A stretch of 48,695 nucleotides of DNA from a virus, in the IMG/VR virus record IMGVR_UViG_3300009605_000032, positions 1 to 48,695 of that record, one strand, 5' to 3'. The notes beneath the pieces are model-generated. The model made no database searches, was not told where the DNA came from, and saw only the letters and a program-made list of their open reading frames with translations. Numbering within the stretch: position 1 is the first letter of the stretch; every line of letters begins with the position of its first letter. The translations under genes and the position numbers were made by a program. Shown one piece after another: positions 8,023-32,193 of this stretch.

Positions 8023-9804
8023 TTAGCCTGTTACCATGTCTCCACAGATAACAAGACCGTACATGTCTGGACGAACCATCTTCTTGGCATAGCGGGTCAT
8101 GACACCCTTACGAGGTACAAAGTCCTCTACACCGAAGATAGTAGGTGTGGTCTGCAGCGGCACATAAGGTGCATACACATAACCACTCTCAAGGAAGGAA
8201 CTTCCGCGGCGACCAACGAGGATCACGTTACGCATGAAGTATGGATCGACAAAGATGTCGAGCTTCTTGGAGAGGGAACCAACCTTAACAGCACCCGCGT
8301 CACCGCGGTCGCTATCAGCAGTTACGTTAGCACGGAAACCAGCTGTGAACTCAAGGATGTTAGCAACTTCTGGTCCGCAGACGATGAAGTTGGCAGCACC
8401 ACGCAGAGTCTTGCGGTGGATCTGTGCAGAGACGTCATTGATGGTCTCAATGAGAGTCTCGTACCACTCGGACACGTTACCAGTGAAGTCTGGAGCGCCA
8501 GAAGCACCGATCTCGGCACCTGTCTCGCGGTTAACAAACTTACCTGGGGAACGCGACCAGTACCGGATTCCGGCACGGGCGTCAACTACGAGGTCCTCAA
8601 GGATCTCGCGGTCAATCTCAAGAGCGATCTGCTCAGAAAGGATCTGAGTAAGCTCAACCTCAGCATCCAAGTTGTGGTATGCGTTGAGGTCCTGACCCAA
8701 TTCTGGGGTCCACTTAGCCTTGAGCTTCTTGGTGACAGCTGTGACAGCCACGGAGTCGACCTTGATGTCGATCTCTGGGATGCCGGCGGCGCCTTCAAGT
8801 CCCCAGACCGGATCACCCTGAACCGAACCGAGTGCACCACCGTTGACGAAATCGTCATCGATAGCGATCGAGAGGGTAAAGTTATCGAGGAATTCCTCGG
8901 CCTCTATCGCGGAACCGGTTGTAACAACAACAATTCGTGCAAGGTCGGAATCAACTGTATCTGGATCATCAAAGGATCGGCTGAGAGCGCTCAAACGAGT
9001 GATAAGATCACCCGCGGAAGCGAGGTAGCCGGCGCCTGGAGTAGCAGACATAGCTGTAAGATCCATGCGGTTAAACTGGGAAGTAGCCGTAGAGATATCA
9101 ACCTCTCCGATGCAGAAGCTAGAACCAGATACGAGATCGGGGTCGAAGCGTAGGACCTGATTGATCTCTGCGGCAGTAAGGTCAGCAAAGCCCGTGTTGG
9201 AGCCGGCTGCACCTGGGACCGTGGATACGGATGTAACCTGTCCGCCTGCGCCGAGGGTACCGGAGCAAACTGGAGCAATGTCCCCTGTGGTCAAAGATCC
9301 TGTTGGCGACGCGTAACCGTTGCGTAAGTTGTATGGTCCCTGGGCAGCTGTGCCATTGTTACCATCCAAATTAACACCACCAGTGATCTGGGAACCGACC
9401 ACACCACCACCATAGAGGGAAGTGTTGGTGTCGAAACCAAGACGATTAGCTGTGCTGTTAGCGTTACCACCGAACTCAAAATCAAGGAAGAAGATGAGGC
9501 CAGAAGGTAAGCTCATGGGCTGAACGCTTACGAGTTCGTTAGCGATCAAGTTGCCGAATACTCGGCGTACAAGTGGGAATGCAACTGCTGCAAAACCCTG
9601 GACGTCACCAGCACTCATGCTGGAAGACTCACGGAGTAGCTCTTTTGCTTGGTTCTCAAGCAAACGCGCCATTCCATTCCGAACGGTATCGTCACCTAGA
9701 CCCTCAAGAAGACCTGTCTGTTCCCACTTATTAATGAGAGCAGCACCTTCAGCTGAGAGATCACGGTTCACGATGCCTTCGGTCAATTTCTCGACGATAG
9801 ACAT
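8023..9804 (-). CDS. Major capsid protein (T4 gp23-like)
   Basis: The 593-residue precursor forms the head shell. The segment GFAAVAFPLVRRVFGNLIAN, continuing ELVSVQPMSLPSGLIFFLDF, is the hallmark of gp23 (T4: MVRRAIPNLIA...VQPM..P.G). The C-terminal part (DPYFMRNVILVGRRGSSF, then LESGYVYAPYVPL) also fits. Residues 1-59 form a helical, charged pro-region, and an L-R-E at 57-59 gives a likely cleavage site for the gp21-type protease (consensus L/I-x-E). Other possible sites are LLE at 48-50 and LTE at 7-9. The ribosome site TTAGGAGG is the strongest in the window, as expected for the most abundant protein. The scaffold gene is 36 nt upstream and a strong terminator follows. Confidence 0.95.
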   Translation of the reverse strand: MSIVEKLTEGIVNRDLSAEGAALINKWEQTGLLEGLGDDTVRNGMARLLENQAKELLRESSSMSAGDVQGFAAVAFPLVRRVFGNLIANELVSVQPMSLPSGLIFFLDFEFGGNANSTANRLGFDTNTSLYGGGVVGSQITGGVNLDGNNGTAAQGPYNLRNGYASPTGSLTTGDIAPVCSGTLGAGGQVTSVSTVPGAAGSNTGFADLTAAEINQVLRFDPDLVSGSSFCIGEVDISTATSQFNRMDLTAMSATPGAGYLASAGDLITRLSALSRSFDDPDTVDSDLARIVVVTTGSAIEAEEFLDNFTLSIAIDDDFVNGGALGSVQGDPVWGLEGAAGIPEIDIKVDSVAVTAVTKKLKAKWTPELGQDLNAYHNLDAEVELTQILSEQIALEIDREILEDLVVDARAGIRYWSRSPGKFVNRETGAEIGASGAPDFTGNVSEWYETLIETINDVSAQIHRKTLRGAANFIVCGPEVANILEFTAGFRANVTADSDRGDAGAVKVGSLSKKLDIFVDPYFMRNVILVGRRGSSFLESGYVYAPYVPLQTTPTIFGVEDFVPRKGVMTRYAKKMVRPDMYGLVICGDMVTG

Positions 9805-9840: not shown

Positions 9841-10953
9841 TTATTTATTCAAACCTGCTAAACGCAGCATACGACCCATATTTGGGTCTTTAGTAGCCTC
9901 GTTGTTTTTTCGGGAGTTGAGTAATAAGGATGTAGGTCTCTGAACCGCTTCACGAAGTGTCTGTGGTCGTGTGCGCTGATCTGGCGCGGACCCCACTGCG
10001 TTTTGAATCGTTTCAAAAATCATACCCGTTTCTTCAACAGAATTGGCAGATTGAACAGCTTCGACAATTTGTGTTTTTTGTCGCTCATTCAAGGAGGCGC
10101 TATTCAAAGCCTTGTTTTGATAAACAAGCTTGGCGTTATCCAAGTTCAGCTTCATGAGCTGATCCTTGGCTTCCATAACGAGAGCACGTAGCTCTCTGTT
10201 AGAATCTGTAAGTTCTGAGATCTTTGTCTCAAAGAGGGCGGCGTCAGAAACTGTATCGACAGTCTGTACCTCTTCCTCTACTTCCTCTTCTTCATCGAGG
10301 GCATTGGCGGCTGCAGCTGCCATGGCTTGATCATTAGCCTGTAGTACACTGTTATAGGCAGAGTTGCCGGATGACCATCCCTGCGGGCGTGGCGTCATAT
10401 CAACAGTGAGTTCTTCTATAAGGTCTGCGATCATATCTTCTGTAAGGTTAATCTCTTCATCTTCACATGCTTCTTCGACGGCGGCATCTTCAATATCTTG
10501 ATCGTCGACGGAATTGCCGTGCACTGCCGCTTGATCCATGGGGGATCCCTCTTCAGACGCGACGTCAACGCTAGGGTCTACTTCCATGCTACCCTCTTCA
10601 AGCTCGTCGGCCATACCGAGGGCATCATTTAGGGCGTCTTCCTCTACAACTTCATCTTCCTCTTCTAGACGAGCTTTAAGAGCATCGAAATCAATCTCTA
10701 CGATTTCTTCTTCAGCAATTCCATCGACCTCTTCGTTTGCAAAAGCAAATGGGAGGTCCTCAGTGAACTCCATGAGATCTTCGCCGTCCGTAGAATCTTC
10801 CTCTAATCCCACCTCATCTTGCTCCAGAAGAGTGTCAAGTGCTCGCTTGACTTCTCCTGAGTATTTGTTTAGGACAGCATCTTCTGCATTTTTTAATGCG
10901 GCTTCCTTGAGGGCTTTAGCGTCTACGATTGCTTCTTCTAATAGTGAAGACAT
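9841..10953 (-). CDS. Prohead core scaffold protein (T4 gp22-like)
   Basis: The 370-residue product is very acidic (long Glu/Asp runs around residues 45-180). It then has an Ala-rich linker and a coiled coil (FETKISELTDSNRELRALVM, then EAKDQLMKLNLDNAKLVYQN). The C-terminus is basic (SRKNNEATKDPNMGRMLRLA). Acidic, coiled-coil composition and the position just upstream of the capsid gene are those of gp22, the internal scaffold that the prohead protease degrades. It contains several L/I-x-E tripeptides that could be cut. T4 gp22 is 269 residues. The ATG at 10953 is preceded by CTGGAGT, a 17-bp perfect palindrome and a CTATTTATT motif. Confidence 0.75.
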   Translation of the reverse strand: MSSLLEEAIVDAKALKEAALKNAEDAVLNKYSGEVKRALDTLLEQDEVGLEEDSTDGEDLMEFTEDLPFAFANEEVDGIAEEEIVEIDFDALKARLEEEDEVVEEDALNDALGMADELEEGSMEVDPSVDVASEEGSPMDQAAVHGNSVDDQDIEDAAVEEACEDEEINLTEDMIADLIEELTVDMTPRPQGWSSGNSAYNSVLQANDQAMAAAAANALDEEEEVEEEVQTVDTVSDAALFETKISELTDSNRELRALVMEAKDQLMKLNLDNAKLVYQNKALNSASLNERQKTQIVEAVQSANSVEETGMIFETIQNAVGSAPDQRTRPQTLREAVQRPTSLLLNSRKNNEATKDPNMGRMLRLAGLNK

Positions 10954-15895: not shown

Positions 15896-16117
15896 TTATC
15901 TAAACAATTTTTGTTGTTTCTTTCTTTCTAGTTTGCGGCGCGCTCTTCGGGCAGCTTCAGACTTAAGTTTTTTACTTATTGAAGGCTTAATATAATGATC
16001 TGTTTTAGAGCGATAGAACTTTACAATACCTTCCTTTTTACATTTACGATTAAAGCGGCGGATTAATCTCTCAGATGTTTCGCCGCGTCGTAGATCTACT
16101 TTCACATTTACTGGCAC
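15896..16117 (-). CDS. rpsU: Phage-encoded ribosomal protein bS21
   Basis: The 73-residue, strongly basic protein matches bacterial bS21: PVNVKVDLRRGETSERLIRR, then FNRKCKKEGIV and a long Arg/Lys helix. bS21 binds the 30S platform near the anti-Shine-Dalgarno sequence and helps initiation. Phage copies are known from pelagic phages and may exchange into host ribosomes to favour phage mRNA; here that is inference. The start is GTG 16117-16115 with the site AGTAGGT upstream. It lies inside the head module, 3 nt after the preceding gene, so it would be made late, with the virion proteins. Confidence 0.9.
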   Translation of the reverse strand: MPVNVKVDLRRGETSERLIRRFNRKCKKEGIVKFYRSKTDHYIKPSISKKLKSEAARRARRKLERKKQQKLFR

Positions 16118-16120
16118 AAC

Positions 16121-16570
16121 TTACCTACTTTCTTTCTTTACATTATTCATGTGGGCGCCCCAATTACGACCGACACTTCCAAACAAATTACCAATATCTA
16201 CACCTGGGTCCGTGGGACTCTGTCCAGACATAGGGCTTGATTGTTGGGTTGGCGTCGTTTGCCCTGGGGCTGGCGTAGTGCCCTCAAATAGATTAACTCC
16301 ATTATAAGCGCTGCCGCCGATTGCAGACATTAGCTTTGTCCTATGCTCATGAAGCTTAGAAGTTTGCTGCGCACTAAATGCATTTTTCTTCAGGCGCTCT
16401 AGTTCGGGGTCAGCTGCTTCCACTCTCTGTTCTACTATGGGCTGAACAGTAGCCATCCCTCTTACGACCTCAGCAATGATACCTGAGATCATCCCATCTT
16501 CCATAAGAGACTCTTTGATGCACTCATTGACGATTGGCTTGATTAGTTTCTTAAAATCTGACTTCTTCAT
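16121..16570 (-). CDS. Small head-module protein, possibly prohead core, function unknown
   Basis: The 149-residue product has an N-terminal amphipathic helix (KKSDFKKLIKPIVNECIKES) and a second helix (DPELERLKKNAFSAQQTSKL). The C-terminal half is disordered and rich in Pro, Gln and Thr. The N-terminus resembles the 'MKI.K.RL..IIKEEL' leader of the five-gene family at 29.5-31.2 kb, which hints at a common targeting signal. It overlaps the prohead protease gene by 4 bp and precedes bS21. The position suggests a prohead core or maturation role; nothing catalytic is visible. Confidence 0.6.
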   Translation of the reverse strand: MKKSDFKKLIKPIVNECIKESLMEDGMISGIIAEVVRGMATVQPIVEQRVEAADPELERLKKNAFSAQQTSKLHEHRTKLMSAIGGSAYNGVNLFEGTTPAPGQTTPTQQSSPMSGQSPTDPGVDIGNLFGSVGRNWGAHMNNVKKESR

Positions 16571-17169
16571 TTCTCACCGACGATCTCGTTCATTAGCGTA
16601 ATAATCTTATTGTTCTTCTCGACTTGCTCATTTACTAGCTTACCTTCAGATAAGGCAATGAATGCATTGGGCGTGGAGGGCTCTGACACAATATCAAAAC
16701 AGATGAGCTGAAAATCATCTTCAACGATTGTCTCACCCATTCTTTCACTTACGGATCCCATGCCGCGGGAGGAGATGCCGATCTTAACGCCAGCATCCAC
16801 TAGCGAGCGGAGGATCTGTCCTGCGGGGGTGTCCAATACTTTGCACTTGCCCATTACCTTTGGACCTTCCATCCAAATATCAACTACCATATGCGACACA
16901 TTGGCTAGGTTAACAATAGAAGAGTCGGGGTGGTCAAGCTCACCGAGGGCACGATTGTCATCTACGATTTGTTTATACTTGCCGACTTCGCGCTCCATTA
17001 CACCCATGGGGTACTTGCGCTTGTTTCCATTGGGGCGATCTGCTTCCTGCAGTTTCCCAGTTAGAATCATACCGCCCTCTTTAACAAAGCGCTTCTCGGC
17101 TTCCGTCAGTAAGTCCTGACAGACGCCGCCTTCGCATAGTTCATAAAATTCTCGTAGTAGTTGTGCCAT
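16567..17169 (-). CDS. Prohead maturation protease (T4 gp21-like, U9/S78 type)
   Basis: The 200-residue serine protease cleaves scaffold, capsid and internal proteins during head maturation. GELDHPDSSIVNLANVSHMV carries the catalytic His80, and IGISSRGMGSV carries Ser133/Ser134. The N-terminus (LLTEAEKRFVKEGGMILTGK, then QEADRPNGNKRKYP) also fits gp21-like proteases. T4 gp21 is 212 residues, so the gene is full length. Consensus cutting in T4 is after L/I-x-E, and such sites are abundant in the scaffold, the capsid pro-region and the five-gene leader family. It lies between portal-side genes and the capsid, as in T4. Confidence 0.88.
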   Translation of the reverse strand: MAQLLREFYELCEGGVCQDLLTEAEKRFVKEGGMILTGKLQEADRPNGNKRKYPMGVMEREVGKYKQIVDDNRALGELDHPDSSIVNLANVSHMVVDIWMEGPKVMGKCKVLDTPAGQILRSLVDAGVKIGISSRGMGSVSERMGETIVEDDFQLICFDIVSEPSTPNAFIALSEGKLVNEQVEKNNKIITLMNEIVGEK

Positions 17170-18135: not shown

Positions 18136-18648
18136 TTAGTACCGGTTTCGTAATGGATAGTAGTAGTAGCCAGGGCGCATTGATCCCTTCTCGGCATACT
18201 GCGGAACCTCTCCGAACTCTGTTGAATCGCGATCGGAAGGATGCACAAACATATCTTCCAGGTTCTTTTCATACTCGTCAGCAATGCGCTCGTGCTCGGA
18301 TTCAGTTTGAATAAACTCTGCGATCACAAAGGTAGCTGCTTGTAAAGAATTAACCTGATCATTTTCAAAGACTTTAGCTTCAAGGGAACGGAATACGTTA
18401 CCGCCCTGGATGGTAGCACGATCAATAATTCCTTTGTCGGCCAAAAGCTCTAACAGACGATTTTGAAAATCATAAACATCTTCTGTTGCTGTTGTCTTAG
18501 GAAACGTAGTAATCTTCATGGAAGATGGAACAACAGCGATATCGATCTTCTGATGGTCCATGATAAGGAGCGAACCATCAAGTCCTCGTCGTGCTTTAAG
18601 TTCTACTGTTGCGTGGGCTGCGGGCTCGCCGATCTGGATCTTAATCAT
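18136..18648 (-). CDS. Hypothetical protein of the portal-protease block
   Basis: The 170-residue soluble protein has a beta-rich N-terminal half (ATVELKARRGLDGSLLIMDH), a helical part (FQNRLLELLADKGIIDRATI) and a Tyr-rich C-terminus (MRPGYYYYPLRNRY). It overlaps the upstream gene by 8 bp and precedes the next by 3 nt. I do not recognise a family. The conserved position between portal and protease suggests a role in prohead assembly. Confidence 0.55.
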   Translation of the reverse strand: MIKIQIGEPAAHATVELKARRGLDGSLLIMDHQKIDIAVVPSSMKITTFPKTTATEDVYDFQNRLLELLADKGIIDRATIQGGNVFRSLEAKVFENDQVNSLQAATFVIAEFIQTESEHERIADEYEKNLEDMFVHPSDRDSTEFGEVPQYAEKGSMRPGYYYYPLRNRY

Positions 18649-19447
18649 GTGCTGAAAGCTCCTTAACTAATTCTTGTGTTTTGAGGACCTTGTTGAGATC
18701 TCTATCTGTAAAGTCCCTCTTTCGGAACTCTTCAAGATATTCGTTTACACTGTCCAGCTTCTGAACGATTAGAGCTTCTTCTGTGGTCTTCTTAGCGGCT
18801 GCTACCAGGGATTTCAGCCGGCTGAGTTCCTCATTAAGATAGACGCGAAGCTCAAACCCCTCATCAGCAAAGCTGGTGATGTAGCGATTCAGAAGATCTT
18901 TTTGCTCCTGAAGCAGATCGGTGTATTTGCTATTAAATTTCTTAATGAACGAGTGGTATGTAATGTTGTCAATGGTTTTGAGATCTTCATTTAACTCATT
19001 GGTAGCTGTCATCTTCTCGATGATCTGCTGCTCAAAAAGTACTTTTGTCTTAACAGGCATCTTTGTGTTGAAGATCGCATTAACCGAAGCCAGAGACTTA
19101 AAGTTAGGTACAAAGTTGGACCAAACATGTTGTCCGAGATTCTTGTTGATTGTGGCAATGATTCGGGACTGTGCATCAAAGACAGCTTTATCATCAAGCT
19201 TAGAGTAAGCAAATTTAGTTTCCTGAAGCATGCGGTCGGCAAGGTTCTCTGGAATACTCTGCGACTCAAGTAATACCTTATAAAGATTCAGTTCGGCTGT
19301 AAGTGGAGAATCCGGAGTGAAGTGCTCTTTCACAATTGAAATCACCAATGCCTTTTGTTCAGATTCCTTCTCTACGATAGCCTTCGTTAGCTCTCGCGAA
19401 AGGGTTTCATAAATAAAGGCGGTGTTTCTTTTCTTATTATGTTTCAT
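18641..19447 (-). CDS. Hypothetical helical protein downstream of portal
   Basis: The 268-residue, almost entirely helical protein starts with a basic KHNKKRNTAFIYETLSREL and is rich in Lys, Glu and Leu throughout (LLNRYITSFADEGFELRVYL). It overlaps the portal gene by 11 bp and so is translationally coupled to it. Coiled-coil proteins here may act as prohead core or portal-vertex initiation factors (compare T4 gp40, gp67 or gp68), but I see no specific match. Confidence 0.55.
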   Translation of the reverse strand: MKHNKKRNTAFIYETLSRELTKAIVEKESEQKALVISIVKEHFTPDSPLTAELNLYKVLLESQSIPENLADRMLQETKFAYSKLDDKAVFDAQSRIIATINKNLGQHVWSNFVPNFKSLASVNAIFNTKMPVKTKVLFEQQIIEKMTATNELNEDLKTIDNITYHSFIKKFNSKYTDLLQEQKDLLNRYITSFADEGFELRVYLNEELSRLKSLVAAAKKTTEEALIVQKLDSVNEYLEEFRKRDFTDRDLNKVLKTQELVKELSAHD

Positions 19448-25547: not shown

Positions 25548-26267
25548 ATGTCGAAACAAGTTAAGCTTAAATTTAAAAAATTGTTAAAAAAAGCAGAGTT
25601 CGTTCATGCTGACTTAGAATATCACGAGGAGTTAATACCAGAAGCAAAACAAGAATTCATGGCGATTGTCAATGAAATATTTCAGAGACTACCAATTGAA
25701 GAAAAAAAGAAGATTAATGAACTACGTGAGCAAAGACTAAGAGAAGAAACCGAAAGACTTGCGCAAGAGTCTACAGATCCAGAAGAAGAGTCCGAGGAGG
25801 AGACAGAGATCTCTCATACGCCAGATAAAGGTGATGAAATCGATGATCTTCCAGAAATAGAAAACCCTGACGTTAGTCCGGTGAAGGGTTCCGAGCTAAA
25901 AAAGCTCTATTATAAAGTGGCCGATAAAACTCATCCCGATAAGGTGCTAGCCAGAGGTGCTTCGGCGACTGAAGCCAAACGTCTAGAGAAAATGTTTATG
26001 TCAGCTCAGGCAGCTTATAAGGATGCGAACTGGTATATCTTGTACTCTCTCGCCATGGATCTAGATATTGAAGTTGCTGATCCTACGAAAGAAACACTTC
26101 ATTGGCTAGAGGAGGACATTAAAGGAACAATGGGTAAAATCTCACACATTGCCTCTCTTATCACTTGGTCATGGTATGTTGGCAATGAAGATGTGAAGGA
26201 TCACGCCATCAAAAGTTATTTCCTCCAAGCTTATGACTATAGGCTTGAAAGCACATCTATTGACTAA
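25548..26267 (+). CDS. J-domain (DnaJ-like) protein
   Basis: This is the only plus-strand gene. The 239-residue product has a Lys/Glu-rich helical N-terminus and an acidic linker (residues 75-110). The J-domain is late: ELKKLYYKVADKTHPDKVLA with HPD at 129-131, then KRLEKMFMSAQAAYKDANWY, the usual helix III. J-domains stimulate DnaK, so this protein may direct host Hsp70 to a phage substrate (head assembly or replication). The J-domain is in the C-terminal half rather than at the start. Start ATG 25548 follows CCAGGAG. It is divergent from the holin-like gene (about 40 bp apart) and converges with the gp47/46 gene with an 11-bp overlap. Confidence 0.8.
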   Translation: MSKQVKLKFKKLLKKAEFVHADLEYHEELIPEAKQEFMAIVNEIFQRLPIEEKKKINELREQRLREETERLAQESTDPEEESEEETEISHTPDKGDEIDDLPEIENPDVSPVKGSELKKLYYKVADKTHPDKVLARGASATEAKRLEKMFMSAQAAYKDANWYILYSLAMDLDIEVADPTKETLHWLEEDIKGTMGKISHIASLITWSWYVGNEDVKDHAIKSYFLQAYDYRLESTSID

Positions 26268-29200
26268 CTGAGGCATAGCCCTTAACTTTATCAATAGTAA
26301 TTTCCATATCAACGATATCCTTGAGCGAGTCTAGGTGAGAAATAAGAATCACAGTCTTAAAATACATCTTGATCAATTGAAGCATGCGAATGAATCCTTC
26401 CATGTTCTCCGCGTCCAAGGCAGTTCCGGGCTCGTCTAGAATAAAGATGTTACCCTTAGGTAGTGATGATATAGACAATAGTGCGAGGCGAATACCCATA
26501 GAGGCTATGGTCTTTTCTGCACCAGAGCCCATCTCAATGGGGCGTTCTTCGTGCTTGGGGTGCTTAAGTAGGACATTCAGTTTCCTACCGTCTTCTTGGA
26601 AAAATACCTCAAAGTCTACAAGATTTGATAAGACCTTGGCAATCTCTGCATTAATGACGGGGAGTCTCTTTTTGATAATATCGTAAGCAATACCGTTTGA
26701 ATGCATACATCGCATAAACAAATCATAAGCCGCATACTCAGCACGAATGTCTAAAACTTCCTGCTCTTTCTCCCTAAGGTCTGTGAGCTTTTGCTCAAGA
26801 GAGCCAAGAAGGCGATTGGAGCGATTAAGGGTTTCATCGCCTTTTTCAATAGCCTTCTTGATCTTACCAATAGTTGCACCGACCTGATCACGAGAGTTTA
26901 AGAGCTTTTCAATATTCTGAATGAGTTCTTTCTTCTCTTCATAGAGGTCTATCTTTTCTTGGGTTGCGGCTAGGTCAGTCTTAAGATTCTTAATCTTTCC
27001 GTAGAGAACCTCAATAGAAACCTTGTTGTCCCTCTTTTCAAGTTCCACATTATTCTTTTTAACTATGGTCTCGTTGTATCGGTTGATTAACTCAATCATT
27101 TCAACTGTATCAACAGAAGCAATCTTGGTTTTATATGTCTTGGCGTCCTCAATCTCGGTGATAATGTCCATCTCTAACGAGGGTAGCTCAACGGTGGCCA
27201 AGTGAGCATCACTAATAAAACGACAGGTAGGATAGTTATCTCCGCACGGAGCCTCGTCTAAGAGTCGGAGTTTCTTACTCATTGACTTATACTCAGTGTC
27301 CATGACTCGGGCACGATTTACTGTGTCATCGTACTTCTGCTTAAACTCGTCATACTCTTTCTTTTGTGAAAGAAGATCTTCAATATCCATTCCCATCAAA
27401 AATTCATCATACTCTGTGAGCTGGGCTTCAAACTCTGCATTCTCATCCTTCAGTTCGCTGATGTTGGTATAGGAGTTTTGTATTTTCTTTTCTAGTGTAT
27501 TACGGCTTTCAACCATCTTTTTGATATCTAGGCGCTCTGCGGGTATAGAATCAATCTTTGTTGTAAGGGTGGCATACTCTTCTTCTGATGTCTGTAGCTT
27601 TTGTCGGAGGACGTCGGTAGCCTTTGTCTCGCTTGCTAGCTCGGCAGTAGCTTCATCTAGCTGAACTTCTGCAACAGCGATGTCAATCTTGTAGTCCGTC
27701 TCTCCGAGGCGTCGCAGGACGCCCTTTAAGTCCGAAGAGTCTTCTTTTGCAAGATTAAACTTTTTCTCAAAGATGTCTAAATCTAAGAACTTAGCTAAGA
27801 TTTCCTTGCGTTTTGTAGAACCTTCCTTAATGAAGGATAAACTATCTAGCTGACTTGCCATCGATGTAAGCAGGAAGTCCTCTACTGTACCAAATCTTTT
27901 CCGAATATGCGCATCGGTCTCAGTGCGAGTAGTACCATTAAGGCTTGCACCTTCGCCTAAAACGGGGTCTGAACCCCTGAAGTCTAGGAACGTTCGTGCT
28001 TCATTTGTAACCTCACCCTTGAGCTTCTTAACATACTTCTCGGATGTGCGCTCAATCGTATAGACTTTATCGCCCACCTGCAACTCTACTGTGCCGCGGC
28101 AATCTGGCTTGTGCTGATTAATAATGTTATAGTTCTTGCGCTCGTTCTTAGAGGTCGTATTGAACATAGTGTAAAGCAAGCCATCAATAACACTAGACTT
28201 GCCCGAATAGTTCTTGCCGAAAATACCAACAATACCATTAAGTTCATTAAAGTTTAGGGAGTTTCCTTCTCCGTAGTTGAAGAGATTGTCCCATTCAAAG
28301 CTGTTGATATTCCAATTAACGTTGCGAGCGATCTCTTCAGTCTCTTCAATCTTAGAGTTATACTTCCGATTGAGTTCAAAAACACGAGACAATGTTTCCT
28401 CAGTGGGCTGATAGTCAGTTAGGTACTCGCGAATAAGGTCCTCTTGCACGCCCTTGTCGCGGAGATTCTCCACCTTAAATCCAGAGCCAATCTCAACGGT
28501 GCCCGTTTCACCAGATGCACGATTAAGAAATGTAATACTCTCAGGCTTAAAGCGATGCTTGGCCACTTCCACAGCCTTACGCATAACGTCAAGGGGCAGA
28601 TTGTTATTACTTACAAGACGCAAGCGCGCTCCTGCGGGGATACTGGTACCCTTAGGCATCCTACCCTTAGGAGTAAGTTCTATAGTCACAAACGGCTTGG
28701 GGTTCAAAAGAACGTGATGTTTTACTGTAAAAGTATTCTTGTCTTCAATGTCCCATATCAAGAAGCCCTTGTCATTAGTCTCACCATGATTCTGTTGTAC
28801 AGTTGAGCCACAGTAGCGTACCCGTCCTTCTGTATCAAGAATCTGATTAGTCTTGTGAATGTCCCCGAGCATTGCGAAGTCGTGACCGGCGAAGACGCCA
28901 ATGTCATGGTCGCCATGATCCATCACCCAGCCAGTGTCAGTCTTGACGCCAGAGACGGCGCCATGATACAGAGCAATATTAATACGCGAGTCATCACTAG
29001 GTGCCACCCAGTTGTCCTCATCAAAGACCGATAGCACGTTGAGCGCGAGATCGGGCTCTAGGACGGTTTCACCTGCGTTCTTGAGTAGATGTAGGTCTGG
29101 TAGGTCCAGAGCCTTCACAATGGGCGACAGCGCGTCCTGACGGGTACTGTTCTTTAGGTTGCCGTCGTGGTTCCCCAGAATGATGTAGGTTGGTGCGATT

Positions 29201-29412
29201 TTCGCTAGATTCGAAAAGAAGTCGGAGCAAAGCTCAACGAACTCTGGTGAAATCTGTGTCTTGGTGTGGGCGATGTCGCCGCAGTGTACGATGTAGTCTA
29301 CGTTTTCTTTTCGTAGTGCTTCATATAATCGATCGAATACGATCTTATACTCGTAGTGAAACTTAAGATTTTTGATGTGCGTGTCCGCAATGTGCGCTAC
29401 CTTATAACTCAA
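26257..29412 (-). CDS. Single-chain gp47-gp46 (SbcD-SbcC / Mre11-Rad50 type) recombination nuclease
   Basis: The 1051-residue protein joins two T4 proteins. Residues 1-340 form the calcineurin-like nuclease: Asp10/His12 (ADTH), Asp46 (CGD), GNHDG at 80-84 and later GHDFAMLGDIH. From residue 375 comes the SMC-type ATPase: Walker A GKNYSGKSS (399-407), long coiled coils, and a hook with two Cys as CGDNYPTC (CxxxxxxC rather than CxxC). Signature GSGAEK and Walker B IFILDEPGTALD follow. It resects DNA ends for recombination-dependent replication. The start is TTG 29412 with GGGGAT upstream; a sigma70-type promoter ends 26 bp before. In T4 the two proteins (339 and 560 residues) are separate. Confidence 0.92.
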   Translation of the reverse strand: MSYKVAHIADTHIKNLKFHYEYKIVFDRLYEALRKENVDYIVHCGDIAHTKTQISPEFVELCSDFFSNLAKIAPTYIILGNHDGNLKNSTRQDALSPIVKALDLPDLHLLKNAGETVLEPDLALNVLSVFDEDNWVAPSDDSRINIALYHGAVSGVKTDTGWVMDHGDHDIGVFAGHDFAMLGDIHKTNQILDTEGRVRYCGSTVQQNHGETNDKGFLIWDIEDKNTFTVKHHVLLNPKPFVTIELTPKGRMPKGTSIPAGARLRLVSNNNLPLDVMRKAVEVAKHRFKPESITFLNRASGETGTVEIGSGFKVENLRDKGVQEDLIREYLTDYQPTEETLSRVFELNRKYNSKIEETEEIARNVNWNINSFEWDNLFNYGEGNSLNFNELNGIVGIFGKNYSGKSSVIDGLLYTMFNTTSKNERKNYNIINQHKPDCRGTVELQVGDKVYTIERTSEKYVKKLKGEVTNEARTFLDFRGSDPVLGEGASLNGTTRTETDAHIRKRFGTVEDFLLTSMASQLDSLSFIKEGSTKRKEILAKFLDLDIFEKKFNLAKEDSSDLKGVLRRLGETDYKIDIAVAEVQLDEATAELASETKATDVLRQKLQTSEEEYATLTTKIDSIPAERLDIKKMVESRNTLEKKIQNSYTNISELKDENAEFEAQLTEYDEFLMGMDIEDLLSQKKEYDEFKQKYDDTVNRARVMDTEYKSMSKKLRLLDEAPCGDNYPTCRFISDAHLATVELPSLEMDIITEIEDAKTYKTKIASVDTVEMIELINRYNETIVKKNNVELEKRDNKVSIEVLYGKIKNLKTDLAATQEKIDLYEEKKELIQNIEKLLNSRDQVGATIGKIKKAIEKGDETLNRSNRLLGSLEQKLTDLREKEQEVLDIRAEYAAYDLFMRCMHSNGIAYDIIKKRLPVINAEIAKVLSNLVDFEVFFQEDGRKLNVLLKHPKHEERPIEMGSGAEKTIASMGIRLALLSISSLPKGNIFILDEPGTALDAENMEGFIRMLQLIKMYFKTVILISHLDSLKDIVDMEITIDKVKGYASVSQ

Positions 29413-29477: not shown

Positions 29478-29885
29478 TTATTTAGAGAGCACTGGCTTCG
29501 GGTTATCAACGGGGCTACCGTCATACACATTGACGCGGCCGGAAGTGCCGATATCTTTCGCAACTTTTGCCAACGCTTCCTCTGGAGTCTTAGCATCAGC
29601 TTTTGAAACCTTATCAACACCCATGTCGCTACCCACATACCAATGTCCGGTGCGGAGCGTCTCGCGTGCACCGATCTCTTGCTCTTCGCCAGGAAGAGGC
29701 GGTGTGATGCGCTTAGACTGATCCGTGGGGCGGGCGCGCTTAGGAGTGCGCACGGTCTTATCTAAAGGAACATTGATCTTCGTGGTTTGGCGGCCGCGAG
29801 GGGCTATCACTGTTCCTGTGCCGTACTCATAGTCTCGGATCACTTCTTGGAAGATCTCTAGTAGTTTTGCTTTTGAAATCTTCAT
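29478..29885 (-). CDS. Leader-family protein 5 (MKISKAKLLEIF...), possible internal head protein
   Basis: This is a 135-residue protein. Its first 17 residues (MKISKAKLLEIFQEVIRDY) belong to the leader shared by five consecutive genes and include L-L-E, a possible prohead protease site. The remainder is basic and Pro-rich (RGRQTTKINVPLDKTVRTPK), then a small compact domain (KTPEEALAKVAKDIGTSGRV) that resembles the C-terminal region of leader protein 3 (KGALAAVAKELGTDP). It is the last gene of the array and 4 nt behind its neighbour. The function is unknown. Capsid targeting is a hypothesis based on the leader. Confidence 0.6.
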   Translation of the reverse strand: MKISKAKLLEIFQEVIRDYEYGTGTVIAPRGRQTTKINVPLDKTVRTPKRARPTDQSKRITPPLPGEEQEIGARETLRTGHWYVGSDMGVDKVSKADAKTPEEALAKVAKDIGTSGRVNVYDGSPVDNPKPVLSK

Positions 29886-29889
29886 TTTA

Positions 29890-30402
29890 TTATCCTCTGT
29901 ATCCCAAGTTCAGCATACGCTTGATTTCACTCGCACGATGGCCATTACCGGCGAGTTTCTTAATCTTGGCTGCTGCGTGGGGGTAGTGCTTCATCAACTG
30001 CTGTACTCCGGGAGTGATGTTCTCCTCAAGTTCTGTGTCGCGTTTCTCGGGCGCCCAAGGTCCGGTAGATGTGACGCTCTGTGTTTTAGCATACATTGGG
30101 TTGGCGAGGAGGTGCTGCAGCCATCTGGTAGTTTCGCCGTCTAGACTAAGACTGAGTTCTTCCAAATCTTCCTCGCTCATTGCCGCAAGAACCTCTCTTG
30201 CTTTCATAAGTGTGAGCAGGCGTTCTTCAGGGGAACCGCCGGTGAACTTCTCGTCCGACTGAAGGTCTCCCAAGCCAGCTTGGCTGTCGGCATACTTCCT
30301 GTCTGCCCGCGTCTCGTTTTCATCATCATACCAGTCGCTCTCGCGGACTGTGGATATCTCTTCCTTGATAATCTCTTTAAGTCTTTGTTTGGTGATTTTC
30401 AC
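29890..30402 (-). CDS. Leader-family protein 4 (GTG start)
   Basis: This is a 170-residue protein when started at GTG 30402, one nt after the previous stop; a longer frame without that start makes no sense in this context. The leader is (M)KITKQRLKEIIKEEISTVRE, with L-K-E and I-K-E tripeptides. An acidic part follows, then helices (RLLTLMKAREVLAAMSEEDL) and a C-terminal basic helix (KIKKLAGNGHRASEIKRMLN). The DNA of the leader is 43/44 identical to that of the next gene upstream, indicating recent duplication or conversion of this segment. No known domain. Confidence 0.6.
   Translation of the reverse strand: MKITKQRLKEIIKEEISTVRESDWYDDENETRADRKYADSQAGLGDLQSDEKFTGGSPEERLLTLMKAREVLAAMSEEDLEELSLSLDGETTRWLQHLLANPMYAKTQSVTSTGPWAPEKRDTELEENITPGVQQLMKHYPHAAAKIKKLAGNGHRASEIKRMLNLGYRG
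30358..30401 (-). repeat. 44-bp leader-coding repeat, copy A
   Basis: This block encodes the start of leader protein 4 and matches 30704-30747 at 43 of 44 positions. The identity stops sharply on both sides, so it is the leader, not the whole gene, that was copied. Confidence 0.85.
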
Positions 30403-30403
30403 T

Positions 30404-30748
30404 TTACTGCTCCGCTCGGGGGAATACGTTGGCGCGTCTGACTGCATCAAGGATCTTTTCCCAGAGGGACGGATCTTTTGGGTCTGTTCCTAGTTCTTTA
30501 GCAACTGCGGCTAGTGCGCCCTTCGCATTCTCTGCTCCTAGATCATACTCGCCGAAGGGTTCGCCTTCCCAAGTCGGCTCGTCAGGCTCGAAGTCATCGT
30601 CGGATAGAGCGGGCATCGACATACGTGTTCGTTTGCCTTGGTGGTAATCGTCATCGGATAGAGCGGGCATCGACATACGTGTTCGTTTGCCTTCACGAGC
30701 AAGCTCTTCCTTGATAATCTCTTTGAGTCTTTGTTTGGTGATTTTCAT
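30404..30748 (-). CDS. Leader-family protein 3, with tandem GKRTRMSMPALSDDD repeat
   Basis: This is a 114-residue protein. The leader MKITKQRLKEIIKEELAREG is followed by two copies of GKRTRMSMPALSDDD (about residues 21-35 and 39-53), an acidic linker and a helical C-terminus (KGALAAVAKELGTDPKDPSL). The repeat is exact at DNA level for 39 bp. It is coupled to both neighbours (TAATG overlap upstream, one-nt gap downstream). The basic-then-acidic repeat could bind DNA or another capsid component. The function is unknown. Confidence 0.6.
   Translation of the reverse strand: MKITKQRLKEIIKEELAREGKRTRMSMPALSDDDYHQGKRTRMSMPALSDDDFEPDEPTWEGEPFGEYDLGAENAKGALAAVAKELGTDPKDPSLWEKILDAVRRANVFPRAEQ
30601..30693 (-). 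repeat. Tandem 39-bp direct repeat (54-bp period)
   Basis: The copies at 30601-30639 and 30655-30693 are identical over 39 bp. They encode the GKRTRMSMPALSDDD repeat of leader protein 3, with a period of 18 codons, so copy number can change without breaking the frame. Confidence 0.85.
30704..30747 (-). repeat. 44-bp leader-coding repeat, copy B
   Basis: This block encodes the start of leader protein 3 and is the partner of 30358-30401, with one mismatch. More diverged copies begin the other three genes of the array. Confidence 0.85.
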
Positions 30749-31053
30749 TAGTTTTTATACCTTAGTTTCTTTTGTCGCTCAAGGTCGCTAGCGCGTCGCT
30801 TCAGACCCTGTCGCGATTTCTGCACGCGAGAGCCAGCAGTGCGATTGAAAGCATCCTTGTAGGCTCTCATATAGTATTTTGATGCAAAGCTGTGGGGTGG
30901 CGTTGGCTCTCTACCAGCTGCACCATCAGCTTCGCCGTCAAGAGTAGCTTCTTCGATCTCGTGGTCACGTTCCCAGTCAGCATCAAAAGCCTCCTCGAAA
31001 GTGGATAGCTCCTCTTTGATGATCTCTATTAGTCTAGCTTTTGAAATTTTCAT
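30748..31053 (-). CDS. Leader-family protein 2, basic C-terminus
   Basis: The 101-residue protein starts with leader MKISKARLIEIIKEELSTFE (L-I-E and I-K-E), then an acidic part (DADWERDHEIEEATLDGEAD). The C-terminus is strongly basic (RTAGSRVQKSRQGLKRRASD, then ERQKKLRYKN), which would suit DNA binding inside a head. It overlaps leader gene 1 by 20 bp and gene 3 by one base. No known family. Confidence 0.6.
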   Translation of the reverse strand: MKISKARLIEIIKEELSTFEEAFDADWERDHEIEEATLDGEADGAAGREPTPPHSFASKYYMRAYKDAFNRTAGSRVQKSRQGLKRRASDLERQKKLRYKN

Positions 31054-31249
31054 TCTGTGTTTCCTTGTTAGTCCGGCGCTTCATGTCTCTCAACAAATCC
31101 TCACCCATATCACGTATCTCATACACCATCTTTGCTCGCATATCTATGGCTTTCTGAGTCTCTTCTGGTTCTTGATCTTCGCGATAAAAGTCGCGATAGA
31201 AGAGTTCTTCCTTGATAATTTGCTTTAAGCGAGCGCTTGGGATTTTCAC
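31034..31249 (-). CDS. Leader-family protein 1 (GTG start)
   Basis: This is a 71-residue, highly charged protein. It begins (M)KIPSARLKQIIKEELFYRDF from GTG 31249, in the same position as the other leaders, so the start is fixed by homology. The rest is a charged helix (RAKMVYEIRDMGEDLLRDMK). It opens the array and lies 8 nt after the primase stop. A CTATTTATT motif lies 33 nt upstream, inside the end of the primase gene. No known family. Confidence 0.6.
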   Translation of the reverse strand: MKIPSARLKQIIKEELFYRDFYREDQEPEETQKAIDMRAKMVYEIRDMGEDLLRDMKRRTNKETQNENFKS

Positions 31250-31257
31250 GAGAACTC

Positions 31258-32193
31258 CTAGAGTGACATAGCTAGTGTCAACAATAAATAGTTATCTGAT
31301 GTGATAAGAGTAGCATTTTCCAAGCATTTCTGAAAGTCGTCTTTTTTCATTGACCCTACGTCCTCGTGGTCTCCGATATTTACTTTCCAAACTTCAATAT
31401 CAAAATCCAATAGTGTTTTAATAATCTCTAGTTCTTTCTTTGTAGCGTCGGGATCTAGTGCAATGTATACGCCGGCGTCTTCTTTGACGATCTTGCGCAA
31501 CAGAACCGAGTATTCGTTTAGCGTGGATCCCAGGATGGGCACAGCATTACGTCCCGCCAGAATCGCATCAAAGACCCCCTCCACCAAAATGATATCTGAT
31601 GTCCAATCAACGAACAAATCATTAAAAACAACATTCTTGCTAGCTGGCGGATTCTTATACTTTGGATATGCCTTGTTATCGTACGACCGAGAGATGAAAT
31701 AGTTTAAGTCCCCCTCGTCATCAAAAGAAGGAATAATGATGCGACCTTCATAATCGCCCTGAGAACAATAACCCATCTTCCACCATACGATGTCTTGCTT
31801 GCTGATTCCTCTTTTGCGAAGGTAGTTCCGCGCTGCGAAGCCTGTCGGTGGAATGTCCTTGGCGGCCAAGGAAATAAATCCTTCTGGCATATCCAGGATC
31901 TGCTTTTCTTCTATCTTCTCGCCGAAGAGATCTTCTAGCTGATCGAAATTAATCTCAGTTGTTAGCTCACGCCACTGTGACTTGTCGGTGTTTGTCCCGA
32001 AGCGTCGGATGACGCGATAGATGTTTTTGCCGCGGGTGTCGCAGACCCAGCACTTGTAGTAGCCTTTGTCTACGTTGACAGAAAACTTACGCTTGTGATG
32101 CTTGCAATAAGGACAAGCAAATAAATACTCATTGTTGGATCGGTAAGAATGTCCGAGAACATTAGTTAATATCTTGAGTTTCTTCGTTTTCAC
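31258..32193 (-). CDS. DNA primase (CHC2 zinc finger + TOPRIM, T4 gp61-like role)
   Basis: The 311-residue primase synthesises RNA primers for lagging-strand replication. The zinc site is C27/C30 (FACPYCKHH) and C48/C51 (YKCWVCDTRG). The TOPRIM domain has Glu205 (IILVEGVFDAILAG) and Asp246/Asp248 (VYIALDPDAT). The part between (ARNYLRKRGISKQDIVWWKM) fits the DnaG-like catalytic core. No helicase domain is fused, so a separate helicase is expected elsewhere. It overlaps the resolvase gene by 32 bp and precedes the leader-family array. Confidence 0.88.
   Translation of the reverse strand: MKTKKLKILTNVLGHSYRSNNEYLFACPYCKHHKRKFSVNVDKGYYKCWVCDTRGKNIYRVIRRFGTNTDKSQWRELTTEINFDQLEDLFGEKIEEKQILDMPEGFISLAAKDIPPTGFAARNYLRKRGISKQDIVWWKMGYCSQGDYEGRIIIPSFDDEGDLNYFISRSYDNKAYPKYKNPPASKNVVFNDLFVDWTSDIILVEGVFDAILAGRNAVPILGSTLNEYSVLLRKIVKEDAGVYIALDPDATKKELEIIKTLLDFDIEVWKVNIGDHEDVGSMKKDDFQKCLENATLITSDNYLLLTLAMSL
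31283..31291 (-). promoter_or_regulatory. Candidate promoter motif CTATTTATT before the leader-family array
   Basis: CTATTTATT occurs in the last codons of the primase gene, 33 nt upstream of the GTG of leader protein 1, the same arrangement as upstream of late genes. It is coding sequence, so chance is possible. Confidence 0.3.

Follow-up and report, generated by a model that had tools for sequence, protein, structure and literature searches.

Among the systems closest to the locus described here is the capsid targeting sequence (CTS) of phage T4 (MKTYQEFIAE↓A, the arrow marking the cut), a short N-terminal leader carried by the otherwise unrelated small proteins IPI, IPII and IPIII and ending in an aliphatic-x-Glu cut motif. 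The leader of IPIII has been experimentally proven to be a targeting sequence, and Asp at the cut residue stops processing but not targeting (PMC9026906). Besides these three internal proteins T4 has Alt, an ejected enzyme which is an ADP-ribosyltransferase (PMC5512222). A related case is that of gp53 and gp54 of phage SPN3US, diverged internal head proteins with identical N-termini which a gp21-type protease removes (PMC5694885). No description of the leader reported below was found in the literature searched.

The window analyzed in this study is the whole of IMG/VR virus record IMGVR_UViG_3300009605_000032, a stretch of 48,695 nucleotides from an uncultured T4-like phage. Five consecutive ORFs of 135, 170, 114, 101 and 71 amino acids were listed on its minus strand at 29478–31249, between genes for a primase (31258–32193) and an SbcD/SbcC-like nuclease (26257–29412; Table 1). 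The original prediction had held that these five tandem genes share one leader with bodies that diverge after it, and this was borne out, with four strong copies of the consensus MKI(T/S)KxRLKxIIKEEL and a divergent copy in gene 1. A strict DNA pattern for the leader was matched by the four genes with a chance expectation of 0.00 in 100 shuffles. A 16-residue leader profile scored 33–47 bits for these four and 11 bits for gene 1; as background, reversed sequence (1.84 Mb) reached -4.4 at best and random viral contigs -10. No 5-mers were found in common between the window bodies in the pairs listed. The claim that each leader carries an L/I-x-E tripeptide also held, with at least one per leader: gene 1 has LLE at residue 10, and the other four have IKE at residue 14. 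An LxE at residues 21/22 is absent from all five. Searches of the array DNA against phages gave no matches, and PHROG and Pfam searches with the five window proteins returned nothing useful.

Table 1. Leader genes and head-module genes of the window, followed by body families found behind both the leader and the T4-type targeting sequence.
Feature	Position	Strand	Details
Leader gene 1	29478–29885	-	135 aa; divergent leader MKISKAKLLEIFQEVI at 29885–29838; LLE at residue 10
Leader gene 2	29890–30402	-	170 aa; GTG start at 30402; leader MKITKQRLKEIIKEEI at 30402–30355
Leader gene 3	30404–30748	-	114 aa; leader MKITKQRLKEIIKEEL at 30748–30701; internal 17-aa tandem repeat
Leader gene 4	30748–31053	-	101 aa; leader MKISKARLIEIIKEEL at 31053–31006; basic C-terminus
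Leader gene 5	31034–31249	-	71 aa; GTG start at 31249; leader MKIPSARLKQIIKEEL at 31249–31202; IKE at residue 14
Major capsid protein	8023–9804	-	phrog_138, E 5e-71; LLRE↓SSS aligned with T4 gp23 cut FLTE↓AEI
Probable prohead scaffold (gp22 position)	9841–10953	-	adjoins major capsid protein gene; LxE 20 vs ExL 7; family z 3.6
Probable prohead core protein, no leader	16121–16570	-	LxE-richest family of the window, z 6.6; leader profile score -55
T4 gp21-like prohead protease	16567–17169	-	phrog_207, E 3.5e-56; family LxE-rich, z 4.0
Shared body, L318 (MKTFQEFILEA..)	L098:48–437		E 5e-20
Shared body, L373 (MKTYREFVTEA..)	L209:9596–9907		E 5e-16
Shared body, L332	L048:5070–5759		E 1e-8
Shared body, L333	L006:383–772		E 1e-4

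Past its leader, the gene 2 product consists of a variable-length linker and then a helical body which it has in common with proteins of four other records (L058, L090, L050 and L039). Its structure model, of low overall confidence, shows a helix at residues 5–21 and then a low-confidence region to about residue 57, and is merely compatible with a free leader helix and linker. An ortholog of gene 5 with a different tail was found at L090:2743–2955. In gene 3 the repeat has a unit of GKRTRMSMPALSDDD(Y/F), present in two tandem copies shortly past the leader. Elsewhere in the window, most of which is coded on the minus strand, a plus-strand gene at 25548–26267 is weakly DnaJ-like (E 4.5e-4, below the cut-off).

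A single scan of IMG/VR with the leader pattern returned more than 230 leader proteins, and together with eight longer records this gave a set of 317 proteins. Past residue 24 their bodies fall into about 228 clusters, 200 of them singletons. A check put forward with the original prediction, namely whether many bodies unrelated to one another carry the leader, therefore came out positive, and the leader is modular. The bodies have a median size of 120 amino acids and are on average slightly acidic; as net positive charge was found in 31%, the suggestion that strongly basic, possibly DNA-binding parts are typical of these proteins failed as a rule. Within the GTDB genomes (257 billion bases) only six stretches matched, all in MAGs, and may possibly come from binned phage; a gp21-like protease was present in both of the GTDB genomes whose records were searched.

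Each of the nine long records has between 4 and 10 strong leader genes, whose arrays occupy several locations. The large terminase (TerL) of leader records is mostly 58–87% identical to that of the window, with some at 35–48%. In two relatives with TerL 83–84% identical the gene content of the array partly differs: gene 2 is retained, gene 5 keeps its start with a changed tail, and others have been gained or lost. Of the 29 leader records with a length of 60 kb or more, 21 have a gp21-like protease, vs one of 20 random contigs, and the gp23-like major capsid protein family shows a similar association with leader records. The link between the leader and phages of the gp21 type is thus shown, with the caveat that it is due in part to a single phage clade. 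Among the eight records without the protease, truncation was shown only for two (G026 and G027), which stop short of the head module. A leader-only tblastn search against annotated phages gave a single weak match, to a 484-kb uncultured phage. The cultured relatives immuto, Mel-JY01 and RM378 possess the head module and lack the leader in a leader-profile scan, and the idea of a leader universal to T4-like phages was rejected on this ground.

The tandem arrangement, and the near identity of the leaders of genes 2 and 3, could also be explained by recent gene duplication and fast divergence without any targeting function. This is all but excluded, as residues 8, 11, 12 and 14 of the leader are kept across contigs whose TerL is as low as 35–48% identical, and the bodies are unalignable, with unrelated folds among them that have homologs outside the set.

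Leaders for composition tests were selected on residues 1–8 alone. Residue 14 is Glu in 96% and residue 12 is I, L or V in nearly all, with Asp at residue 14 in none of 217; an [LI]xE at residue 14 is present in 208 of 212 representatives and one ending at residues 18–24 in 112 of the 212. In residues 17–24, which lie outside the selection, 129 of 280 leaders have an LxE, where shuffling gives 46 (z 13.8), while the reverse order ExL gave 47 vs 47 (z 0.1); in residues 29–40 LxE is depleted (z -4.6). The nine long genomes repeat the excess at 17–24 (30 of 62 vs 9.5), as do leaders that the scan pattern misses (53 of 118 vs 19.7), and the P1' position after LxE shows a preference for A, G and Q. 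Position-independent selection for LxE in residues 17–28 was not shown, since away from 21/22 its enrichment is no greater than that of ExL, and the LxE at 21/22 may be an inherited consensus, the leaders being related by descent. The leader core LKEIIKE↓E resembles both the capsid-protein ELLRE↓S and the start of T4 gp24, INELLRE↓S.

The head module of the window contains the homolog of the T4 prohead protease gp21 that had been predicted (Table 1). With the 42 window genes pooled with their orthologs and ranked by [LI]xE excess, the top five were all head genes, namely 16121–16570, the capsid protein, 18641–19447, the protease and the scaffold. T4 gp22 is likewise LxE-rich (16 vs 6 expected). 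When ten capsid proteins of the group were aligned with T4 gp23, all 11 proteins held [LIV]xE at the cut place. In the clade the residues there are LLRE↓S, LLRE↓Q, LLRE↓T, LLKE↓Q or LLRE↓A, and the cultured relatives have ISE, VSE or LME. From the LxE at this place and the LxE excess in head genes it can reasonably be inferred that the protease of the clade has LxE specificity, the cut itself being an inference. The original prediction of a faint leader in 16121–16570 failed on the profile score, and this gene looks like one for a prohead core protein. The head-module protein of 18641–19447 (minus strand), of unknown function, is given as a side observation, being a candidate for a core protein of the prohead or for a protein that is processed (LxE excess z 4.5). 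It should also be noted that a ribosomal protein S21 homolog (15896–16117, minus strand; PF01165, E 5e-13) lies within the head module and occupies the corresponding position in Microcystis phage Mel-JY01.

Most bodies behind the leader are unknown. Those recognized include Sigma70_r2 (residues 56–113), an AAA_33 kinase (28–212), a GNAT acetyltransferase and pentapeptide repeats. The body of L012:842–1492 is ADP-ribosyltransferase-like, being homologous to proteins with Pfam ART-PolyVal. An ART fold was not supported by AlphaFold and Foldseek, where the model (pLDDT 53) was too poor and gave no match, so this call rests on sequence homology only. In two further records (L445 and L446) the ART-PolyVal domain belongs to polyvalent injected proteins and is homologous to this single-domain leader protein.

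The T4-type targeting sequence, scanned as MKT[FY]xEF[IL]xE, yielded another full protein set, with a gp21-like protease in 10 of the 15 long records that carry it. Four body families occur behind both this sequence and the leader (Table 1), and in sipho- and podophages (Kolga, HTVC026P and CRP-901) the L373-type body has no leader at all. The leader therefore behaves like a detachable module that occurs where a T4-type prohead exists. On other contigs (L326 and L343) the T4-type sequence precedes ADP-ribosyltransferase-like starts (YYHGTPES and AHYTSASN) which have no Pfam match. For the T4-GC 119 cyanophage bodies, the sole evidence found of their being virion proteins is the annotation 'structural protein'.

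Of 1980 residue-pair/spacing features, none is more depleted in the leader bodies than L..E at i,i+2 (118 vs 201, z -5.8), and MxE and IxE also rank near the bottom. The bodies thus avoid LxE, with an observed/expected ratio (o/e) over all leader bodies of 0.77 (bootstrap by locus 0.66–0.89) vs 1.21 in a control set of conserved ORFs of the same phages. The depletion is weaker in the nine long genomes alone (o/e 1.03, LxE/ExL 76/112). Bodies behind the T4-type sequence gave 0.88 and those behind an immuto-type leader (see below) 1.02, which is no depletion; the internal proteins of T4 with Alt tend towards depletion, on small counts (7 LxE vs 14 ExL). These values bear on a second alternative, in which the leader proteins are prohead-targeted structural elements of the core, like T4 gp67/gp68, with incidental or degraded bodies. 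In its favor, the core-like 16121–16570 is LxE-rich and adjoins the protease, and the leaders, being amphipathic helices, could pack in a core. This explanation is nevertheless very unlikely, as core proteins of the window are LxE-enriched (o/e 1.7–3.4) whereas the leader bodies are depleted, as expected of proteins that survive the protease, and there are intact enzyme domains among the bodies.

A role in DNA metabolism had been raised as the alternative to capsid loading on account of the neighboring replication genes. In this form the leader would be a docking helix, never cut, for some other phage-made assembly (the replication/repair machinery or a membrane site), with products that work beside the primase and the SbcC/D-like nuclease. 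The array begins 8 bases past the primase stop and is not preceded by a late promoter of the T4 type: TATAAATA gave four matches vs 1.7 expected, none of them upstream of the array. Arrays in relatives also often flank an SbcC-like gene. Other arrays, however, are distant from replication genes or lie just before the protease (G016:130496–131078), and the bodies include a sigma factor, a kinase and ART-like proteins rather than replication factors. The docking helix also leaves unexplained both the LxE avoidance and the bodies shared with the T4-type targeting sequence, and it is considered unlikely. Location beside replication genes does not count against capsid loading, because the head cluster of T4 likewise does not include ipI, ipII and ipIII.

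The preferred reading is that the common N-terminus is likely a lineage-specific, unrecognized variant of the T4 capsid targeting sequence, a propeptide cut by the gp21-like protease. The modular capsid-loaded set of the original prediction, with one targeting peptide cut at LxE, is thus supported by the tests run, with loading and cleavage still inferred in the absence of virion data; there is no virion proteomics for any leader phage, and the structure models are of low confidence. As proposed, the amphipathic helix (about residues 1–16, often to 22) would dock the protein on the prohead core, the presumed receptor being the probable scaffold. The gp21-like protease, the presumed leader-removing enzyme, would then cut after [LI]xE, either IKE at 14 or, where present, the LxE at about 21/22; both the docking and the actual cut position are inferences. 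The mature body would remain in the head with the DNA and be ejected into the host, packaging and ejection being likewise inferred, and the five window genes would be exchangeable cargo genes of one set.

A bolder reading, towards which the evidence tips only slightly, is that every T4-like lineage uses an address peptide of its own that fits the core scaffold of that lineage (MKTYQEFIAE in T4, MENFDLKKFLxE in the immuto type, MKITKxxLKxIIKEEL in the clade). Each peptide would load fast-changing, mostly unknown injected effectors, with bodies swapped between lineages through leader exchange, and the leader would be a sequence-only label of the proteome that uncultured marine phages inject. The injected proteins of an uncultured phage cannot normally be read from its sequence. 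Should the leader prove to be a capsid address, injection could be predicted at once for hundreds of so far unknown marine phage proteins, among them sigma-factor, kinase, acetyltransferase and ADP-ribosyltransferase-like bodies. Given this inferred function, a new capsid-loading tag would also be offered, and a common leader combined with bodies that avoid the protease motif would provide a general screen for other phage groups.

Comparison with known systems shows likenesses of varying depth. The encapsulation peptides of bacterial microcompartments similarly bring unrelated cargo into a protein shell by means of a terminal amphipathic helix of about 18 residues and a disordered linker (PMC12339742). 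They are not removed by a protease, and no shell gene was recognized in the window, so that the likeness is an analogy of mechanism only. Polyvalent phage proteins were found to have a domain (of the ART-PolyVal type) in common only with L012:842–1492, and the short leader proteins do not share their build of two or more disparate domains in a long polypeptide. The SPN3US proteins share with the leader proteins the common N-terminus on diverged bodies and the gp21-type protease, but their propeptides are of 124–127 residues, the cut is at AxE and there are only two paralogs.

A de novo search for common N-termini on different bodies was run on T4 as positive control, where ipII/ipIII ranked first (49 vs 18 in reversed sequence). 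As a side observation, T4 gp61.1 (NC_000866, 18969–19130) starts with MKTFKEFIKED, like the targeting sequence of the internal proteins, and is possibly an unrecognized internal protein. In immuto the same search gave MENFDLKKFLVEN on two genes (L293:1803 and L301:441, immuto 2-6A), and a scan for this leader type returned 43 IMG/VR stretches (L274–L316), with MENFDLKK[FY]LxE on 25 clusters of 30 bodies. This leader of Flavobacterium-type phages is comparable in being common to many bodies, in its LxE end and in the gp21-like protease of 12 of 14 long records; it has no sequence similarity to the clade leader, and no depletion of LxE was seen in its bodies.

The closest comparison remains that with the T4 CTS. 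The clade leader (MKITKxxLKxIIKEEL...) is not homologous to it, with only M-K and the hydrophobic-hydrophobic-x-E end in common. It is longer (16–22 residues), has an E14–E15 pair and often a second LxE at 21/22, and is carried by about 4–10 cargo genes per long genome or fragment vs three internal proteins and Alt in T4. Targeting is proven by experiment for the T4 IPIII leader, whereas both targeting and cleavage are inferred here. The two are alike in consisting of a short N-terminal leader on unrelated small proteins with an aliphatic-x-Glu motif, in cargo genes that lie outside the head cluster of phages with a gp21-type protease and a gp23-type capsid, and in the body families that are found behind T4-type leaders too.
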